Positions 11,886-25,919 of a DNA stretch of 64,000 bases are shown piece by piece. Every line of letters starts with the position of its first letter. The first letter of the stretch is position 1. The DNA lies in NCBI GenBank assembly GCA_013368315.1, contig JAACJM010000190.1, positions 62,001-126,000 of the forward strand, given 5' to 3'. This DNA is from Tetrapyrgos nigripes. Its lineage: Eukaryota > Basidiomycota > Agaricomycetes > Agaricales > Campanellaceae. A model generated the notes under the pieces. It searched no databases. It saw only the letters and a list, made by a program, of their open reading frames with translations, and was not told where the DNA came from. The translations under genes and the position numbers were made by a program.

Positions 11886-13279
11886 TGAACTTGCAGTGAA
11901 GTGTCCAGCATGTCCTGACCCTGATGTAAATCTTCCAGCCAGTTGGCCATCAGCCCCTACTGGAATGCAGTGAGTTTTTCAATAGTTCCCCTTTTTCCAT
12001 TTACAAAAGTCTCTCCACTTCTCCCAGACCTTTACAAAAGCATGGGACTTGTCTTCTCTGACTTTTGAAATAGTGATAGTGCTTACTCAACTTTTTTTCA
12101 GATTTCTTTATTTCATGTTCCTGTCTTTCAATGCTTGTTTTCATTTGAAGAGGAAACGGGTTTCAAGCTTACAGGATGGTATGGCTTATTTCATGGAGAA
12201 TACACCTTATATGCAATGGGTCAAGAAGATGGCAGATCAGAAGGAGGTAGGTTTTGTGTGCTGAGTAGGATTGTGAATGAGTTTACTTACATTTCATTAG
12301 ATGAGCAGTTGTACTGGGCTGGCCGCTCTCGATCACGTGAACACCAAGTATCATAAAGGCTATGATGAAACTGGTAAAGGTGCAGGTTCCTGTGCTCGGC
12401 ATGAGTTTATTCTCCGGAATGCTATTGTTGCCTTGCAAATAGGAGAAAGGTGAGTTTCATCATGATTTCAAACCGTGCTTTATCACTTTCCCCATTTCTG
12501 TGATACAAGTGTTCTTCAAAGTGATGACCACGCCACAGCTTTTACAAAAGCCTTTGCATTGCTGTTGAAAGTAGTTTGATGTGTCATACTGACTCTGTGT
12601 GTCCCAGATATGCAAACATGGATTATATCAAAGCATCTCTCCTAAGGCATATTCACATACTCCTCATTTTACTTGTCTCATACGATATTGTATGCCAATG
12701 GTCAAAGAATCTGATCAAAAGACTCAAGAAATTGCCCCCAATGCTACGCTTGAATCTAGCACTCCAAATCCTGATTTTTGTGATCCTGAAACTTCACATC
12801 CTTGGCCATCTCATCAAATGTCAGGAGAAATACTCCTTGAACTATGTTCCCAGAGCAGGCCAGACTGATGCTGAAGGCATTGAAAGAATCTGGGCTGGCT
12901 TGGGACCAGTGGCAATGAGCCTAAGGGAGATGGGACCTGGCCATCATCACGATACTCTGGAGGATCATATAGGTCATTGGAATTGGAACAAAGTAATTGG
13001 CTTGGGTGAGTTTTTTTGAAAAGTGGCATCATTGATTTTGGACTTGGAATAATTTTTAATATTCAGGGGCACTTTTGAAAAAACAATTGATAAATGCTGT
13101 ATCAGAATTTCAACAACACCTACAATTTTTCCTGGATTTTAGTGGAAGGCAGAGTGAGCATGCAGTGGAATGGCAGGTCATGGTTGATAACTATGAGAGT
13201 GGGCTGTCAAAAGAGAATCCTTATGAATTGCCAATCAAAGGTGAGAATGATCAGCTTCACAGAAGTCTGGCCCCTTTCT

Positions 13280-14544: not shown

Positions 14545-14700
14545 TTTAAAAAGGTGAGGCATCTTTTACAAAAGTGCCATAATGAGACTGACTTTTGAAA
14601 ATCTTAGAGAACAGCTTTTACAAAAGTGCATTCTAACAAAAAGTGAGTCGAGTTTTACAAAGGTCTCTCTTCCCAGAACTGACTTTTGCAAACATAGCTT
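14545..14700. repeat. cluster of degenerate CTTTTGYAAAAG palindromes in a KDZ intron
   Basis: About six related motifs (CTTTTAAAAAGG, CTTTTACAAAAGT, ACTTTTGAAAAT, CTTTTACAAAAGT, TTTTACAAAGGT, ACTTTTGCAAAC) fall between two coding blocks of the transposase, just before the exon at about 14709. Confidence 0.75.
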
Positions 14701-15279
14701 TTTTTTAGGTCTTCTTGTTGAATGGTGCAAGTCATATGCACAGGTAAAAAGATGGAGAGAAGAGATCTTGCTGCTCCAGGAAGAGATGAGACAGTGTTTG
14801 GTCACTTTTGAGTGGCAAGCCAATGATTGGGAATCCAAAGCTGATATACCAACCTTGGAAGGGGAAAGGCTTGAGGGATCTGCTGCTTACGCTCATGAAC
14901 AAGCCCATGTCAGAAGAAAAATCTCAAAGAGGTTCCAAAAACTCTGGGAAACGAATGAAGCCAAAAGGTGTCTTCAATTTGAACCAGGAAGTTTGGATCT
15001 CAATGTGCTATTGGGAGAGGTATCAACAGCCATGGATGTTGATGAGGTCATTGATGAAGGGGAAGGAGCCCAAGGTATCGCTGATCTGGAAACACCAGAT
15101 GAAGATGACCAGGATGAAGAGGAGGAGGAAGATGTAGATGAGCAAGCAGAAGGTAGGATTGAGGGTGAGGAGTCAGAGAATGAGGAGGAAGACAATCAGG
15201 AGGACGATGCTGAAGAACTAGAGGAACTGAATGTATACTAGATGTTGACAGACTTGGAGGGAGATGTTATATCATAGAG

Positions 15280-15715
15280 TCTATGTTTTACAAAAGTCAC
15301 TTGCTATCTACTGAGGCTTTTGCAAAGGCCACCCCTTAGTATGCCAGCTTTTGCAAAGGTCCCAGGTTGGCGTTTGCAAAAGCTCACCCTTGTGCAACTT
15401 CTGCAAAAGTGGTCACTTCTTGTTCAGCTTTTGCAAAAGCCATGTGAAGCTGACATGGCTTTTACTTTTGCAAAAGCTGAACAAAACATGATCACATTTG
15501 CAGAAGGGAACCACCTATTGAACCACGTGTCACTCAAAGCAGGACTAAATGTGACCAAGGTAACCCAACTATCCCATGTTTTGCAAAAGCTGAACTGAGT
15601 GCATGTATATTTGCAAAAGCTCAACAAAATCCACTCAGATTTACAAAAGTGAGCACACTTTTGCAAAAGATAGGCTATCTGTGCAAAATGGCCCAACTTT
15701 TACAAAACTGCACGG
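15280..15715. repeat. dense array of CTTTTGCAAAAG-type palindromes in the KDZ 3' flank
   Basis: Immediately after the KDZ stop codon, about fifteen copies of the palindrome in 430 bp, for example GCTTTTGCAAAGGC, AGCTTTTGCAAAGG, AGCTTTTGCAAAAGCC, ACTTTTGCAAAAGC, ACACTTTTGCAAAAGA and AACTTTTACAAAAC. Spacing is irregular (about 15-40 bp) and the intervening sequence is not repeated. A degenerate last copy (GACTTTTGCAATTGCC) lies at about 15842. Confidence 0.85.
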
Positions 15716-15902: not shown

Positions 15903-16419
15903 CAGCTGAGAGGTGTCCATTCCAAACATTGTAGATTCTCCTGGACCACGCTCGACGTAGGATGCCTAGACCAAAGAGTCGACACCTTGTCTCTAAACTG
16001 TTGGTTCATTGAACAATTGATGATAAGAATTGATCTGATAGACTCCAGATAGGCTTTGAGGTATAGATTAAGGTGGGCTAGAATTTGTTGACCAGCTCCA
16101 AAAGTGATGATATGGGTGGGGTGGGTTGGCCTGATGAGGTTTGTGGAGAGCCTAGATATTGATCAATAAAATTAAAATAGCTAAGTACACAACAATTATA
16201 TGCAAGAATGGACAGAATCGAGATAAAGACTCTAAGTACATGATCTCATGATACCATCACTGAGATCAAAGCAAAACAAGCAATATCGCACTCACCAGCA
16301 GCATTCCTCAACACCGTCAACGTCCTCACATTAACAATTGCCTTAACCCCTCCTGTATCTTTATCCAACATGATAGTACTCACTGGCAGCCCACGTAAAT
16401 CACCTGGATTTATAGGTAC
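15903..16419 (-). pseudogene. ornithine cyclodeaminase-like pseudogene, downstream part
   Basis: Reverse-strand copy of the intact gene at 42407-43789, matching intact positions about 42665-43175 including the intron. It reads NPGDLRGLPVSTIMLDKDTG and ALRNAAGECDIACF, close to the intact protein. It stops at 15903, so the C-terminal half is missing, and frame-disrupting changes are present downstream of the intron. The 5' side ends exactly at intact position 42665; the adjacent bases (42584-42664) are found 6.8 kb away at 23181-23261. Confidence 0.88.
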
Positions 16420-17449
16420 AAAGGAGCAGGCCAAGGGCTGGCTATCACAATGCCAGAGCCAAATGCAGTGGGTAGTTGTGAAGACCTAGCTAATTGTGGA
16501 AGGCAGCATTTGTGGTTGGGCTGATGGCCCATGACATAAGTGCATAGCCACCTCAGAACCTGTCCGCACCCATCTGCCCACCAGTAGATGGCCACGAATC
16601 GTGGCTATTCTGTGATTAAAAGATGATATGTACATTGTAAAGACTAGAGGATACTATCATACCAATAATACCCATTTTTACGAGGGTTTTTTGCAGGAGA
16701 GTTGTGACAGTTTCGCGTGACATAACGTGTTAGTCACGGTAATTAACCAAATGTCGCGCGGAAAACTATTTACAAAAAATCGCGCGTCAGATCTCACTTT
16801 TTGGTCTAACTAAGGAGTAGATCATACTAAATACTTTCTTCTCAAGTACGTGGTCAGAGGGTTTCTCTTGTTTTGGAGTATACTAGAAAATACAACATCT
16901 AATTCCCTGCTCAAGATGATTCTATTTGAATATGACTATGCGATGTTACAGATAAAGGGCAGCTACAGTAAAATACCTGGGGCGGACATTTTTGAGTACA
17001 TTTTTGGCAGGCGGCTGGGTGGCTGTGTGCTTAATAAGTCTCCAGCGGTCCTGCAGGCATTGCCGCCCTCCACTAATTGAACTATGTGATCACATGACTA
17101 ACTAGGGTCTAGACCTCCCCCAAATCCCTACTCCATCGATACGACCAGGCTCCTTCCCAGCCCCCGATATGGCGACTGCTGATTGCTAGGAGTGAGGAGA
17201 ACGATATTTGTACTTTGTTTGTCAATATATTAAGAATTGACCAATCAGCTTGCGAGATATCAAAGGCTCCAGTCGCCATATGGGGGCTGGCACAACTGTA
17301 ACGGCAGGAATCTCGGCCATCAAATCGGAACGCGCTCCATATCACACACGCCCTCACGCGCCCCTATCCCCATACGAGCGCGACCTCTTGGCCATGGCGT
17401 CCTCTGTCCTCAGAATGCTTATCGATATTGGAACGAGTTTTGCCTAACA
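16420..17449. other. 1-kb leader of the DUF6589/RecQ unit, no gene seen
   Basis: No coding region recognised. Contains short CG-rich motifs (TCGCGTGACATAACGTG, GTCGCGCGG, TCGCGCGTC at about 16712-16790) that could be terminal or regulatory sequence of the unit. The promoter of the DUF6589 gene should lie here. Confidence 0.4.
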
Positions 17450-20222
17450 ATGATCACCCCTCAGCTTCAGTCTATCCTCTCCAAGCTTGATGAAATGGCT
17501 GCCAGTCCTGCAGACTTTCTCATTTCTCTTACTCAAAATGAGGATTTAGTACAAGAAAAAGATAACCTTCAAGCACAAGTCCACAATGTTCTAAGCACTT
17601 GGGAGTGTAGTTCTGGGTTTGCGGAAACCACAATCAATTGGGCACGAAAGAAAATGATGGACAGATACACGCAGCAGCTTCTGACTCTCATTGGCAGTGT
17701 GGCTGACCTTCGATTCTCTGCTACCAAGGCTACCAGCAAGCAATTGTCCAAGATAGATGTTGATTCCCTTGCTCAAGATATGCAGAAGCATGCCCCAGAC
17801 GTTTGGGACCTCCTCGAAGTGCTTTTGGATGCTAATCCAAAACTGGCAAAGCTGCGGAGGCAACGAAGTGAACGAAAGTTTGGCAAAAAAGATGTTGGTT
17901 CGGAAGATGTTGAAATGGTAGATGTTAGCAATGAGGAAGACGAAGAATCAGTGTACTGGACAAGACATGGGGCGAAGGACATATACAATGATGGATGGGA
18001 GGATGTGGACCCACCAACGTTAATAGAGAGTCAAGTATTGGAAAACCGGAAATCTTCCCTCATTATTGTAAGTAAAGTACTTTCTCTATTGGCCTCTCAG
18101 CAGTATAATGATTATAAACTTGATTATTTGTTCAGAAACAAGTCGTGTGCATGAGTATCATGCTTCAAAGTACCAATCAGCGCTGCAATGCATTGCAAAG
18201 CCTGATCGGACTTTTCTTACATGCATGTAATGCACCGGATACAGTCGTCGAGCTACTGGCACACATTGGGTTATCTATATCATCATCTGCGACAGATGAC
18301 GCTGTTGATAGCCTGAGTGTCGAGTCAAAGAAGCAGATCGAGGAAACAGCAAGCGCCTTGCTTAATGCATATGGGTACGATAATGTCGACATCGATTTAA
18401 AACAGGCATCCACCCTCGAAAACGCACAGCCTACCCTCATCCATTTAACCTCCGGCACTATGCTTCCATTTCAGCACAATGTGACGTTGCAGGATCTCAA
18501 CTGCGCTGACGAGATATGGGACAAGTCACCCTACAATCGCCATCGTTCATCTAATCACCAACATGTATCTGACCTTGACCTACTTCATCTTCACCCTGAA
18601 GCCCCTGATCACCCCTCTGGACTCTTACGTCGAGAGCGCTTTAATGCTTGGGTCTTTCTACGTGATCTTATCCAGCATGGACCTGTATATTTCTCCCAGT
18701 TCCGCTCCAATCTCGACAAGGAGCCACCAGAATCAATTGATTCCATCCCCATCGTTGAATCCAAGCAGGTTCATCTACGTATGGTTGATTCTGCCTGTGC
18801 TACACCTGCAGAGTACGCACAGGTCATCGAGGATTTTCTCTCCAAACAGGGAAATATTGGTGACCCGCACAACCAAGGTGTTGCTGATCCCGCCAACAAG
18901 AGACGTGTCAATGTAGGAAATCATGTTCAAATTATCTTTGGGGATTTAGGTGTGGGCGAGAGGGTAGACAGCTTGCAGAGATCACGATCAGAGGAGAAGA
19001 CACGGTGGCGGCGCCTGCAGAATCTTGTTTATGTCATTGGACTTTTCCATGTCAAGATGGCATGTGCCGATGCCCTCTGGCGCACATTAATCGAACCATT
19101 GAAATCTCGAAACGAATCTGATGATCACAGTCTCATGGCTGATATCAGGGTTCTACGACCACGAGAGACCGCAAAGATCTCGTCCAAACCTGGATTTCGA
19201 AGGATGCACGAAGTGATTCAGCAGAGTGGGATTGCAATGCGACTGAACTGTTGGGAATTGGAGGCGGCAAAATCCAACTCAAACTGGACTTCTCTTGATG
19301 ATTTTGCAGAGTCCAAACCGACATGGGATCAGCTGAAAGCATGGTCTGCACGCATCACCAAGGCATATGTTGCCGATAGCACCTTTAACGACATTCGGAA
19401 AAAGCACCAGGACCAGAGGGACGAAGTGCAGGAGAACCTTTTACTACGACATCAAATATTTCTTCTTTACGAGGAACTCTCCTATGCAATGAACGAAGGT
19501 GATATCGGCCGAGTGGAGACATGCTTCATGCCTTGGGCTTTCATCTTCCAGGCCTCGGGCAAGCATAAATACTCCACTGCCCTGCGGAAATATCTTCGAG
19601 AAGTACATTTCCACTTACCGAAAGGACTTGCGTACGTATCATTAGCTATCCCTTTTTTTGGCAACTAAATCATTTGCAGGAGAGCTATCCGTATGCATAT
19701 CTTGGTCAATCCCACTGCCAAGAAGGGTAGGTTTAGAGGTGTCGATTGGTGGATTGAACACAATAACCTTTATCTGAAAGTGAGTGATGTTACATACATA
19801 TTTTCAACAGTCTGATCTGTTACAACGACCAGCGCATCTATGGCGGGAAATTCTCTAATCATACCAAGGCTCGCATTCTCAAGGAATCACCTCTCATCGG
19901 AGTGTTCGGAAACACAAGAATTCAGGCACAGAAAATGTTCAAGATGGGGAGGAGGACCTCACGTCATTCTGGACCAAAACTCCTATCTGCTTTCCGGGCA
20001 TTAGCAGCAAGATATCGACAGCATCGCACAAACGACTTTGTTCCCGGACGAAAAACACTCTACAGTATTCCCGACAAATTAAATGATGGTATAGATATGG
20101 CATCAAGAGTGAAAGTACCTGAAGTCGTAGAAGAGGGCAAAGAGGTAGAAGAAGAGTGGGAGGATGAACTAGAGAACGAGGAAGTTGATGAGTTTGGAGA
20201 TCTAGATGTAGAGGATTTATGA
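17450..20222 (+). CDS. DUF6589-domain protein
   Basis: A large agaricomycete family of unknown biochemistry, often in many copies per genome, which suggests spread with mobile DNA. Gene model: exons 17450-18067, 18136-19631, 19680-19779 and 19833-20222, all phases consistent, giving 867 residues. Visible features: an N-terminal helical region, an acidic segment (about residues 160-190, EDVEMVDVSNEEDEESVYW), the family core (IIFGDLGVGERVDSLQ, then VIGLFHVKMACADALWRT) and the C-terminal signature VDWWIEHNNLYLK joined to RIYGGKFSNHTKARILKES. It ends in an acidic tail. There are no internal stops, unlike most elements here. It converges on the RecQ-like gene with only 70 bp between stop codons. 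The DUF6589 name rests on recognised motifs. Confidence 0.8.
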
Positions 20223-20292
20223 TTCATAGGTATGGTCGTAGATACTAAAGAATTTGAAGGTATGTACATAAGTAGCTGTAGGTACTAAAGGT

Positions 20293-22857
20293 TTAAGGAT
20301 TATGTCTATTCAGAGTGTCTAAATTAGAAGGAGTGGCAGTTACGGGCTCGGAACATAGGAGCGTAGCATGTAAGGGTGTCAGCGGTAGACGAGAGGGAGT
20401 GGAAGTACCGGAAAAGGGCGTAGCATGTAAAGGTGTCAGGGGTAAACGAGAACCAGATGGAGTGCTGGGTACATTCACTTGCAAACGAGCAGGGCATCGT
20501 TTGTTATTTTCTACGCAGAGGGTATATATATTCAACAACAACAAAACGAGAATAGATCAGGAATTTTGGACGTACTTCTATGTCCCTTTTGACCACAGCC
20601 ACTGCAAGTTTCCTGGGATTTTGTAGCAGGAACCACCGTTGACGGGAAATGCTTTTCAACAATGTCGAGAATCTTTTGACCGTATTCCCGCAGGTACTCA
20701 GCTCTCCACTGGATCTCTATGCGCAAGGCACTCAACGAGGTCAGTTTCTTCGACGCCGCACAGTCAACAATCCGATCAAGCATCTGATTTGACAAAAATA
20801 ATTGTGTACCCCACTGAGAGAATAAACTACCAAGCGCTTGAGGAACAACTTGTAGGCGCCACTCTTCCAGCGCGCTGCGAAGAGTCGCATGAGCTTCGTT
20901 CGGCTCGTACTTGGAAACCCGAATCTTACCCGTTCCACGAGTAGAACAAGCGAGAGAGACTGCCGGAATTTCACTAAACGCATTCGGACTGCATAGGTCA
21001 CAGCAACGCTCGGGTCTTTTTGGCCTACATCGTGCACAACCTGCAGGATTGTGCTCGTCGCAGAGAAGATGATAATTGTTGTCTAAAAATGAGTCAGGTT
21101 AACATGATACAGCTAACAAAAAAACCTTTGAATGATAGATACTCACTAACTCTGTCATTGGAGTAATAGAGAGTCACAACATGACGACGACAGGAAATTC
21201 CACGAGTAGGAGCGTTGATGAACTCGTCGAGAGCAGATCCTATGGGAATGGGTTCGTCTTGTTTACCTTTGGATCTTCGAGTCCTAGCACCGGTTGCGAG
21301 TTTGGCCTGGTACATGAGACGACGGGACTCATCAGTCTGTGCATAGTCCCCAACAGAAGCAGGAACAGTCGGCATCGTAGACGGAGTCAAATCGGCAGCT
21401 TGATCTGGACTGGGTATTTCAAGATTGCTGGCGTTGTGGACGCGCCGCCGTTTAGGCGGTGAGCCACCCTGCGCCTTAGCCTTCCGTTTAGAACTTGAAA
21501 AAGGCCCCGTGTTCTCTTTGGTCTCGGTGGAGGTAGCTGCCTTTGTCTTCTTCGTGCGATTATCTTGCTTCCTCAGGCGGTCGGCGTCAAAAAAAGTCTT
21601 TTCGACAAGAAAGACTGCTATTGCAGATGAGTCGGGACCACGGCCAGCACGTCCAAACCGTTGCCAAAGCGTGTTGAAGTCACAAGTGGCGCGATACTGA
21701 ACGACGATCTGGATATCCGGTAGATCAATACCCTAAAAATGAATATCATTAGACACGAGTAAAAAACCTGCAAGTAGAGGGAAAGTAAAGATGATCATAC
21801 CATTCCAAACGCGTCTGTTACCACCAAACCCCAGACTTCTCCTTTCTGAAAAGCCTCCAAGTTCTCATCTCGATACATACTCGTCATGGTGGCGTGAAAA
21901 TAACGAATTTTATCGTGATGACAGGATGGAAGAAGCTCTCGGAGAGCCTTGACAGCGTCTTCAGCATGTCGAGTATTGTCCATGAAGACAACAAACTTCG
22001 GCGGTGGCGGATCACCGTCCTTGAAATCAGGCGGTATTAAGAAGGAGAGATCTTGATATGTGTCGATAGGATGCTCCATTTGACGAACAACGACATCGAT
22101 ATTCGGACGGTCATTTGACATGGTGACATGCTCCGTACTCTTGGGCCGCAAGAGCAGCAGATCCACGACGTCGTCAAGTATTGTCTTGGGAAGGGTTGCA
22201 GACGCAATATGGAAGGGAATGGTCTTTGCGGTACGTGGGAGGAGATGTCGGATGATGCCTACATGAAGGTACTGGTCCCGAAAAGTCTTGCCCCACTGAC
22301 TGATGCAATGTGCTTCGTCAAAGACAAAGTACATGATCTTTGCGGCAAACTTGGGATTCTTGATGAGTGTCTGGCATAAATCTTCATTCAGTAGCTCAGG
22401 GCTAATGACTACGACATTATATTTAGCGGAAGCGATGTCCTGCGCATAATAGAGTTAGAAACTGAAGAATAAGATAGTAAACAGAATTACGCACTTTGTA
22501 AGTCTGAGCATTGGAGTTTTCTTTGCTCACTGCAATAGCAGAGAGGAAGGAGCCATCATTCAGCTGAATAGCATTCTGCTTCCCCAACAAATTGAGCGGA
22601 GTCACGACGACTGCGATATCATCACAACCTTCTGCTCGAGACATCATTAAAGCAATCCAGAATGACATAGTTTTCCCAGCCCCTGTCCGCGCAACTCCCA
22701 CAACATCTTTCCCATCATGGATAGCGAGAGCAGTCTTGATCTGCCACCAACACGGTTTCTTGCCAGTCTTTTCCTCAACGAGGTTTCGGATTTTCTTGAC
22801 ATCCCAGCCGGCAGGAAGCGGTGTTTTTCGAGAATGGTTGGGAAGCACAGCGGACAT
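20293..22857 (-). CDS. RecQ-like DEAH-box DNA helicase with C-terminal zinc knuckle
   Basis: RecQ-type superfamily 2 helicases unwind DNA with ATP. Gene model on the minus strand: exons 22857-22495, 21801-22439, 21147-21732, 20576-21082 and 20293-20510 with consistent phases, giving 770 residues. Motifs: Walker A GVARTGAGKT, VVVTPLNLLGKQ, the Walker B box DEAHCISQWG, SATLPKTILDDV, VVTDAFGMGIDLPDI across a splice, and motif VI QRFGRAGRG. After a Lys-rich linker comes a Cys-rich block (NYHLLCDEHNPAGCARC). The last splice creates CSGCGQKGHRKNNKRC, a CCHC-type knuckle, followed by a duplicated Pro/Thr-rich repeat (SRLPLTPLHAT, twice). It resembles the short RecQ-like helicases that are multicopy and sometimes telomere-linked in fungi. 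It looks intact. Confidence 0.85.
20325..20450. repeat. duplicated ~60-bp coding repeat in the last exon of the RecQ-like gene
   Basis: Two imperfect copies of a unit including GTAGCATGTAAGGTGTCAG (near 20362 and 20421) encode RLPLTPLHAT twice on the minus strand. Confidence 0.65.
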
Positions 22858-23041
22858 ATTAGTGTAGAGGGAAGTTTAGAGTACATTAGACATCTATAGG
22901 GAGCACTAACGCGACAGGAACGTCGAGACGGAAGACTGTCAACGACGACGCGTCGCATACCCCACATGACTACGCCGAGTATTTGGCTATAGGTTCCGTA
23001 CTATTTGGTTGATGCCGGAACGAGGTTGCCGTGACAGTTAT

Positions 23042-23170
23042 GCCAGCCCTCTGTCGTGAGGAGACAAAAAGATATCTAACAACATGATTGGTCCGCTTAA
23101 GAAATATTCCCATCCCCTCCTTCCTCCCCTTCTCCCTCGAAATCAAGTCTCCTCACGAACGAGGGCTGGG
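23042..23170. repeat. imperfect inverted repeat at the right edge of the DUF6589/RecQ unit
   Basis: CCAGCCCTCTGTCGTGAGGA (from 23042) pairs with TCCTCACGAACGAGGGCTGG (ending 23169), with a two-base mismatch in the middle and about 82 bp between the arms. It could be a small hairpin element or part of the unit's end. Confidence 0.65.
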
Positions 23171-23180
23171 TAGGAGCCTG

Positions 23181-23261
23181 CGATACGACCTGCATCGTCG
23201 TTCCCATATCACATATCTGGGAAGGCATAAGGAGGGCTTTGTGGTTCTCGGTTGGGAAGAC
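23181..23261 (-). pseudogene. ornithine cyclodeaminase-like pseudogene, upstream fragment
   Basis: Reverse-strand match to intact positions 42584-42664 (reads VFPTENHKALLMPSQICDMG). It joins at 23261/23262 to the 3'-untranslated region of a GH76 copy, a junction not present at the intact locus. The first about 59 codons are absent. Confidence 0.85.
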
Positions 23262-23912: not shown

Positions 23913-25919
23913 CATCAGGAAACCGGTCCTCGGAAAATGAACCGAACATTTTTGCTAATATGTGGTTATTAGCACTGTTAGCGCCAGTAGCAAAGTTACC
24001 CCTAACCGTCGCTAATTACCTACCCCCCCTCTTCACATTAGCCAAAATTAGTACAAGATAGCAGGCAAATATTAGTACATTACCTGGATTACAATGCTCC
24101 TCAAAATGCTATCCTGTGCTTTCATATCCAAAACAGATATACATCGATCAATGAATGGCGAGTAGTACTTTTATTAAAACAAATCTAGGCTATGTACAGT
24201 TAAGAGTCATACAGAAATAAGTATAAAGAAAACCTCTGTACTTCGCCAGGTTACTCATCCTCCTCGTTACCGCTGGCCTGCTGCGAATCATCCTTGGCAC
24301 CATCAGATCCCACCTCTCCTTGAGCAGTAGATGACGGCATTGTAGTAAAAATGCAATAGTTAGCCGTGGGTGACCGGGGCAAGAAAACAACTGCAATATC
24401 AATTAGTATGTTTCATCAAATGAAAGAAGGCTCACAAAGCTCAATGTGACGAGCGAGAGCAGCTGTGATGGATTCAGAGCTGGTGGATGGGCCCTGGGGA
24501 GAAAGAAGAGAAGGTGAGCATATGTTTAAAGAAATGTGAAGGAAGATGGAAGACGGAATACAGAAAGAACACCTACCATCAACACAACCCTCTCCTGAAA
24601 GAAGGCTCACAAAGCTCAATGTGACGAGCGAGAGCAGCTGTGATGGATTCGGAGCTGGTGGATGGGTCCTGGGGAGAAAGAAGAGAAGGTGAGCATATGT
24701 TTGAAGAAATGTGAAGGAAGATGGAAGATGGAAGACAGAAAGAACACCTACCATCAACACAACCCTCTCCAGATCCCCTCAACTGCTTAATAGCCTAATA
24801 TTACTCTGTACCCAATTAAACGTGAACTAGAGAAGCATATGGCAAAGGTGGAGCTACATACCAACAATCTTTCTGTATGTCATGGAGGTCAGCACGAACT
24901 GTGATCTGAGGACAGGGGAAAAGAACACGCACCCCCAGAGGTGCTGGCAACAATGGTGGTCGCAATAGTGGTAAATGACCCACTGGACGTGGTAGAGCTG
25001 GTGCTGGCAATACTACCAGAAACAGTCTCTCCACTATTTGCATGTAAGACGGGTCTTCAGTAGGAAAGATCCAAACGCGAAGAAAAAATAACACATACAA
25101 ATCACCCTAATCAACATCAGCATTACCGGGTTAAGCTGGTCAACAGTTACGCCAACTTTGGATGCAAGATCTCATCAAAAACCGCAGCTTGACCTTGTAG
25201 CCTTGTACATCTTGGAACATGCCGTTCTGGAGGAGACGGGTGCGGTGGTGCCAGTGGTAGTACTTAGCTTCCACTAATGTGCTCTCAAGGAAGATGAGAG
25301 CAAAAAAGAAAATAGTTTGGTTACGAAGGAGAAGGAAAAGAGCGAAAGCTGGAGGAGCAACAGTGGACGTTAGGTGGAGACGTTGAGTAAGAGGGGAGCG
25401 GCCGCAAAAAATCAACATTGCGGTCACATGCAGCGGAGTTTGAACCGACTTGACGCGTTCTTGACCGCGCCGTTAAAATCGGGTTAGCGACGGCGCTACG
25501 GTAGTATGTTCCCTCCTTCATTACTTATCAATGAAGCCCCTACGACAGGCCTCTAGGCAGCCACAAAAAAGGACAGATGAAATTGTAGTTGCAGGAATAC
25601 CTTTAGATATGATTGTGCTTTGAAATGGGCTGGTCTGACTGTCTGTACTTCCAGAGTGGACTTCGGAGAATCTTCCCAGTGCTTGCTCATCTTTTCTAGT
25701 TAGCCATTCCATAGGATCTTGTGTAAGATGTAATATCAGATAATGTCTGCTAACAAACTGATAATTTTTCTATGCCTCCACTAAATTCAAGTAACTTTTG
25801 GTAGTGTGTCTTGGAGATATCAAATTAATGAGAAAAGCTGCCGATTATCGGAGCTACCAATGTTATTGATAATCTGAGCTAAGTTAGCGTCGCATTATCC
25901 GAGGACCAGTTCCCTGATG
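23913..25919. mobile_element. 2.0-kb TIR DNA element inside the GH76 pseudogene
   Basis: 27-bp terminal inverted repeats match at 24 of 27 positions: CATCAGGAAACCGGTCCTCG at 23913 and its reverse complement ending at 25919. Alignment to the paralogous empty site (46670-46690) places the insertion precisely. The flanks suggest only a 2-bp GT duplication, so the superfamily is unclear. It contains no recognisable transposase. Possible short spliced coding fragments lie on the minus strand (24250-24480, ending ASGNEEDE; and 25142-25330 with EAKYYHWHHRTRLLQNGM). It is probably non-autonomous with captured sequence. Confidence 0.8.
24420..24771. repeat. 176-bp tandem duplication inside the 2-kb TIR element
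   Basis: GAAAGAAGGCTCACAAAGCT recurs at 24420 and 24596 with nearly identical sequence through GAACACCTACCATCAACACA. Only a few base changes separate the copies. Confidence 0.9.

Follow-up and report, generated by a model that had tools for sequence, protein, structure and literature searches.

The locus and its two genes

The window analyzed here is a 64,000-nucleotide stretch of the genome of the mushroom Tetrapyrgos nigripes (contig C185, positions 62001-126000; the assembly comprises 98.5 Mb in 587 contigs). Between the two halves of a host pseudogene it holds a 6,035-bp element that encodes a DUF6589 protein and a RecQ-like helicase and is bounded by terminal inverted repeats and 9-bp target-site duplications. 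With considerable confidence, we read the element as an autonomous-looking DNA transposon that most likely belongs to the AcademH lineage, with DUF6589 as its DDE transposase and a RecQ-like superfamily 2 helicase as partner. The features of the locus, in window coordinates, are as follows.

15908..16419, minus strand: left half of the host pseudogene, 87% match to window 43162-42665
16420..17136, no strand: separate, unrelated repeat insertion of ~717 bp in the same pseudogene, outside the transposon, with other genomic copies
17137..17145, no strand: left target-site duplication CGATACGAC, 9 bp, single copy at C163
17146..23180, no strand: whole transposon, 6,035 bp, exact ends common to the C106 copy and the empty site on C163
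17146..17166, plus strand: left terminal inverted repeat CAGGCTCCTTCCCAGCCCCCG (inverted repeat I6, 21 nt, 90% complementary)
17450..18067, plus strand: transposase (DUF6589) exon 1, spliced model
18136..19631, plus strand: transposase exon 2 with D288 and D476, spliced model
19680..19779, plus strand: transposase exon 3 with candidate catalytic E731, spliced model
19833..20222, plus strand: transposase exon 4 and stop, spliced model
20532..21082, minus strand: helicase exon 4, Cys-rich C-terminal part and stop, spliced model
21147..21732, minus strand: helicase exon 3, spliced model
21801..22439, minus strand: helicase exon 2, spliced model (Helicase_C, E 1.6e-17)
22495..22857, minus strand: RecQ-like helicase exon 1, spliced model
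23160..23180, minus strand: right terminal inverted repeat (I6, 21 nt, 90%)
23181..23189, no strand: right target-site duplication CGATACGAC, 9 bp, single copy at C163
23181..23261, minus strand: right half of the host pseudogene, 93% match to window 42664-42584

The stretches matched by the pseudogene halves adjoin in an intact copy within the window, so the halves were once contiguous, and the break lies at one point, 42664/42665 of that copy, as the initial annotation had it. The 6.76 kb between the halves does contain the two-gene unit that was proposed there, but it is not the product of one insertion, since the ~717-bp repeat lies beside the two-gene element. Relatives of the left 600 bp of this repeat lie on C163, C34, C2, C24, and C128; matches of ~55 bp to the right end of the repeat occur on many contigs. 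The repeat stops exactly where the target duplication of the transposon starts, and no target duplication of its own was seen at the locus.

The spliced models give two intact-looking, convergent genes, as expected from the earlier reading. The plus-strand gene has four exons and encodes 867 amino acids; PF20231 (DUF6589) matches residues 371-783 with an E value of 1.2e-92 and 311 bits against a cut-off of 27, making the protein a strong member of a family whose Pfam entry, however, gives no function. The minus-strand gene, also with four exons, encodes a 712-residue protein with DEAD (E 5.9e-21) and Helicase_C domains in Pfam. The corresponding annotated protein (P0121), 100% identical to the spliced model across 99% of its length, has recQ_fam as its best NCBIfam model (E 3.8e-46), with a score of 157.8 bits that falls under the 219.8 cut-off of that model. 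The zinc knuckle previously assigned to this helicase is present at the C-terminus as CSGCGQKGH, but the last cysteine of the homologues' consensus is missing. The two stops lie 309 bp apart (20222 and 20532), rather than 70 bp as first thought.

Ends of the element and the empty site

The element begins with CA and finishes with TG. A related site on C163, in the same genome, lacks the element; CGATACGAC occurs there once, and the left flank runs straight into the right flank. The right flank is 735 bp long (99% identical). The left flank corresponds to window 17081-17136, the 56-bp right-hand end of the repeat (74-bp match, 95% identical), and is short, given that homology on C163 resumes only 3.7 kb away. 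Together with the shared ends and the target duplications, this empty site indicates that the DUF6589 and RecQ-like genes came in as one mobile unit.

Genome-wide, the terminus pattern CAGGCTCCTNCCCAGCCC is found at 57 sites with up to 2 mismatches, 20 of them perfect, compared with 12 sites for a reversed-pattern control. Ten inverted terminus pairs less than 12 kb apart were taken from these sites (C1, C6, C39, C48, C52, C77, C84, C106, C185, and C368). Perfect 9-bp duplications flank eight of these (C6, C39, C48, C52, C77, C84, C106, and C185), and all eight differ in sequence. The duplication at the C1 pair matches at 7 of 9 positions; the C368 pair, which is broken by a nested insertion, shows no flanking 9-bp duplication. 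Both the number of termini and the 8/10 perfect duplications exceed chance. Short copies with both ends kept measure 197 bp (C1), 867 bp (C6), 262 bp (C39), 1,059 bp (C48), 258 bp (C52), 338 bp (C77), and 252 bp (C84).

The other long copy lies on C106 (97%); it spans exactly the equivalent of window 17145-23180 and carries two nested insertions of ~2.6 and ~2.8 kb. Relative to the window copy, it has 19 gapped bases in one transposase exon and 2 in one helicase exon, and its last helicase exon aligns over 514 of 551 bases. These gaps and the incomplete exon make the C106 copy look broken, whereas the window copy looks intact. We note that, of the two nested insertions in this copy (C106:236903-248320; loci L003 and L004), the ~2.6-kb one has a 9-bp duplication of its own, TGCGGAGGC, and the ~2.8-kb one is flanked by an imperfect duplication of ~11 bp.

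Association of DUF6589 and helicase genes

The 108 DUF6589 and 65 helicase matches in the genome were reduced to 54 and 53 loci, respectively, by merging same-strand matches less than 3 kb apart. A DUF6589 locus lies within 10 kb of 26 of the 53 helicase-like loci, involving 25 of the 54 DUF6589 loci; assuming uniform placement, the chance of such a neighbor is 1.2% per helicase locus (binomial 9e-36). As this expectation ignores transposon-rich regions, KDZ transposases were added as a control. Among the KDZ matches listed and used (150 of 173), 1 of 148 loci is within 10 kb of a DUF6589 locus, and that one is in the window (Fisher p 6e-17). The two genes are therefore not independently placed in the T. 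nigripes genome. A second helicase query contributed three more convergent partners (C30, C41, and C106:112200), raising the number of paired DUF6589 loci to 28 of 54; C12, C26, and C39 gained no partner with this query.

Adjacent pairs recur in other mushrooms. Consecutive gene numbers are found for four pairs (Cerrena QCA50_014705/014706 and 004608/004609; Trametes scf184690.g3/.g2; Tricholoma H0H92_004012/004013). Between-species matching used 73 named proteins among the 120 listed of 216 DUF6589 matches and 76 named fungal helicase homologues, of which 17, from 13 species, match a listed DUF6589 protein in species and in a contig of equal size, although a common contig does not prove adjacency where contigs are large. 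Over 18 pairs, the transposase and helicase distance sets are correlated (Mantel r 0.658, with 0 of 5,000 permutations as high); species relatedness contributes to this value, and nearest relatives agree in only 7 of 18.

The 26 close pairs in T. nigripes comprise 16 convergent, 10 divergent, and no tandem arrangements, a distribution that points to two or more structural groups of the element. For a more distant DUF6589-helicase pair on C29, no terminal repeat with a duplication was found. When 21 loci (L049-L069) were inspected for CAGG-type termini, starts resembling terminal inverted repeats were confined to L054 and L055. The helicases of a more distant group (L049, L052, and L056) share a conserved block upstream; it reads GATGACAGTCGATCA... 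in L052 and L056 and may be a terminus.

Predicted fold of DUF6589

The initial annotation put DUF6589 forward as a recombinase or transposase candidate, to be checked for an RNase H-like or tyrosine-recombinase fold, and the predicted fold agrees with the RNase H-like transposase reading. The 19 best structural matches to the DUF6589 family model are all transposases or RAG (Hermes, Tn5, ISCth4, P element, RAG1, and Transib), headed by the hAT transposase Hermes at 12% identity, with other DDE folds close behind. Foldseek alone returned nothing at an E value of 0.001 or better, and the DUF6589 profile, searched against PDB sequences, gave 10 weak matches (best E 0.058), none of them transposases. 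On the predicted structure, a DDE transposase with an RNase H-like fold is the best explanation for DUF6589. D288, D476, and E731 are candidate catalytic residues, of which the final glutamate is the one we infer to complete the triad.

Probable assignment to AcademH

Two lineages of Academ transposons are relevant here. The nuclease of AcademX is XPG; neither protein of the element has a nuclease match in Pfam. The AcademH lineage reportedly goes back to Kojima's 2020 work (Mobile DNA 11:15), and papers citing that work describe it further. AcademH makes duplications of 9 or 10 bp and AcademX of 3 or 4 bp, tied to helicase and nuclease, respectively (PMC10045372), and Kojima 2023 suggests that this difference in duplication length is connected with the enzyme carried by each lineage, helicase or nuclease (PMC10045372). 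Members of AcademH are known from Basidiomycota, Ascomycota, and Mucoromycota, where their copy numbers are low (PMC10799480), and putative nonautonomous Academ elements are described in Marasmius oreades (PMC8290104). Passages of PMC12730594, PMC12210899, PMC9970103, PMC4455052, PMC12411881, and PMC10294476 yielded nothing that bears on the element.

Like AcademH as portrayed in these papers, the element has a helicase gene beside the transposase, makes 9-bp duplications (perfect at 8 of 10 terminus pairs, with 9 or 10 bp stated for AcademH), encodes a DDD/E transposase of RNase H fold, in our case a predicted fold, and resides in a basidiomycete. No difference from AcademH emerged among the features compared (helicase, duplication length, fold, and occurrence), sequences and termini lying outside the comparison. 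AcademX would belong to the same superfamily if the AcademH label holds, but its 3-4 bp duplications and nuclease contrast with the 9 bp and helicase seen here. AcademH is thus the most likely label, judged from architecture and duplication length and from published descriptions of the lineage. Because the element agrees with the printed account of AcademH in its helicase, its duplication length, and its presence in a basidiomycete, the earlier suggestion of an undescribed type of element is probably wrong; most likely it represents a new family within a kind already known.

Alternative interpretations

The closest solved structure to DUF6589 is Hermes, the element and Academ were compared by description rather than by sequence, and the word DUF6589 was found in no paper of the open literature searched, with subscription papers, Repbase, and Pfam notes outside that search. 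All three points would suit a superfamily of its own, as yet unnamed, in which a hAT-like DDE transposase occurs together with a RecQ-like helicase and 9-bp duplications. In its fuller version, this would be a widespread mushroom superfamily distinct from Academ, with an ancient transposase-helicase partnership in convergent and divergent layouts and a helicase that helps to set the 9-bp stagger. We regard a separate superfamily as unlikely, and its fuller version as improbable to the same degree, given that helicase, duplication length, and occurrence all agree with the AcademH description. As for a place within hAT itself, Hermes heads the structural ranking, but other DDE folds follow at a short distance. 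hAT transposons make 8-bp duplications, in contrast to the 9 bp found here, and none of the five terminus pairs examined for 8 bp gave a match. We also know of no hAT elements that carry a RecQ gene.

Mutator-like elements commonly make 9-bp duplications, and one with an acquired helicase gene could be envisaged. This reading was rejected as very improbable for want of a MULE family among the Pfam matches at E values up to 1. In addition, the position judged equivalent to the C/DxxH motif, common to MuDR, hAT, P, Kolobok, and Dada (PMC9587614), reads GLFH in DUF6589, with G551 nearly invariant. The same paper describes KolobokH as a DDE transposon known from fungi only that encodes a RecQ helicase, a feature shared with the element, but with TTAA duplications and 5'-RR...YY-3' ends (PMC9587614); the varied 9-bp duplications and CA...TG ends found here leave KolobokH with next to no probability, and it was rejected. 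Finally, the helicase could be a host gene, RecQ or telomere-linked, that came to lie beside a transposase by chance, through ordinary rearrangement. Telomere-linked RecQ genes do exist in fungi, and 27 of the 53 helicase-like loci are without a DUF6589 neighbor within 10 kb. Nevertheless, the helicase sits between the terminal repeats in both long copies, TTAGGGTTAGGG is not present in the window, and the pairing is far above the KDZ control, making such an origin extremely unlikely. A telomere-linked helicase beside an unrelated transposase was rejected on the grounds that the shared ends enclose both genes, and a simple chromosomal rearrangement was rejected in view of the empty site and the target duplications.

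Other features of the window

To the left of the pseudogene, a KDZ transposase match (Pfam PF18758) is located at window 12606-12983 (C185:74606-74983), and an acidic open frame at 14558-15241 may be the C-terminal part of that transposase. Dense TTTGCAAAAGC-type repeats in both orientations occupy 15278-15700. On the other side of the transposon, 24421-24770 contains a tandem duplication of 175 bp (97% identical).

Proposed mechanism and implications

For the AcademH-like element, we propose that the DUF6589 transposase would bind the CAGGCTCC terminal repeats, excise the element, and join it to a staggered target, generating the 9-bp duplications. Binding, cutting, and insertion with a 9-bp stagger are suggested because of DDE chemistry and the duplications observed. 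The RecQ-like helicase encoded by the convergent gene probably unwinds DNA, perhaps during excision, target joining, or gap repair. The internally deleted copies of 197-1,059 bp, which keep both ends, were presumably mobilized by the full-length enzyme. The observed basis of this scheme consists of the ends, the duplications, the empty site, the gene pairing, the ATPase/helicase domains, and the predicted fold. The element may be active at present.

The main new part of this work is the linking of Pfam PF20231 to a transposase. Because the word DUF6589 is absent from the literature searched, the connection to DDE transposases may be absent from open print. A family of unknown function would thereby become a DDE transposase with a helicase partner, and, since the evidence makes PF20231 such an enzyme, hundreds of mushroom 'hypothetical proteins' could be reinterpreted as products of transposons and not of the host. 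With two long copies, one that looks intact and one that looks broken, and several short deleted ones, T. nigripes would offer a compact system for probing what a helicase contributes to cut-and-paste transposition.
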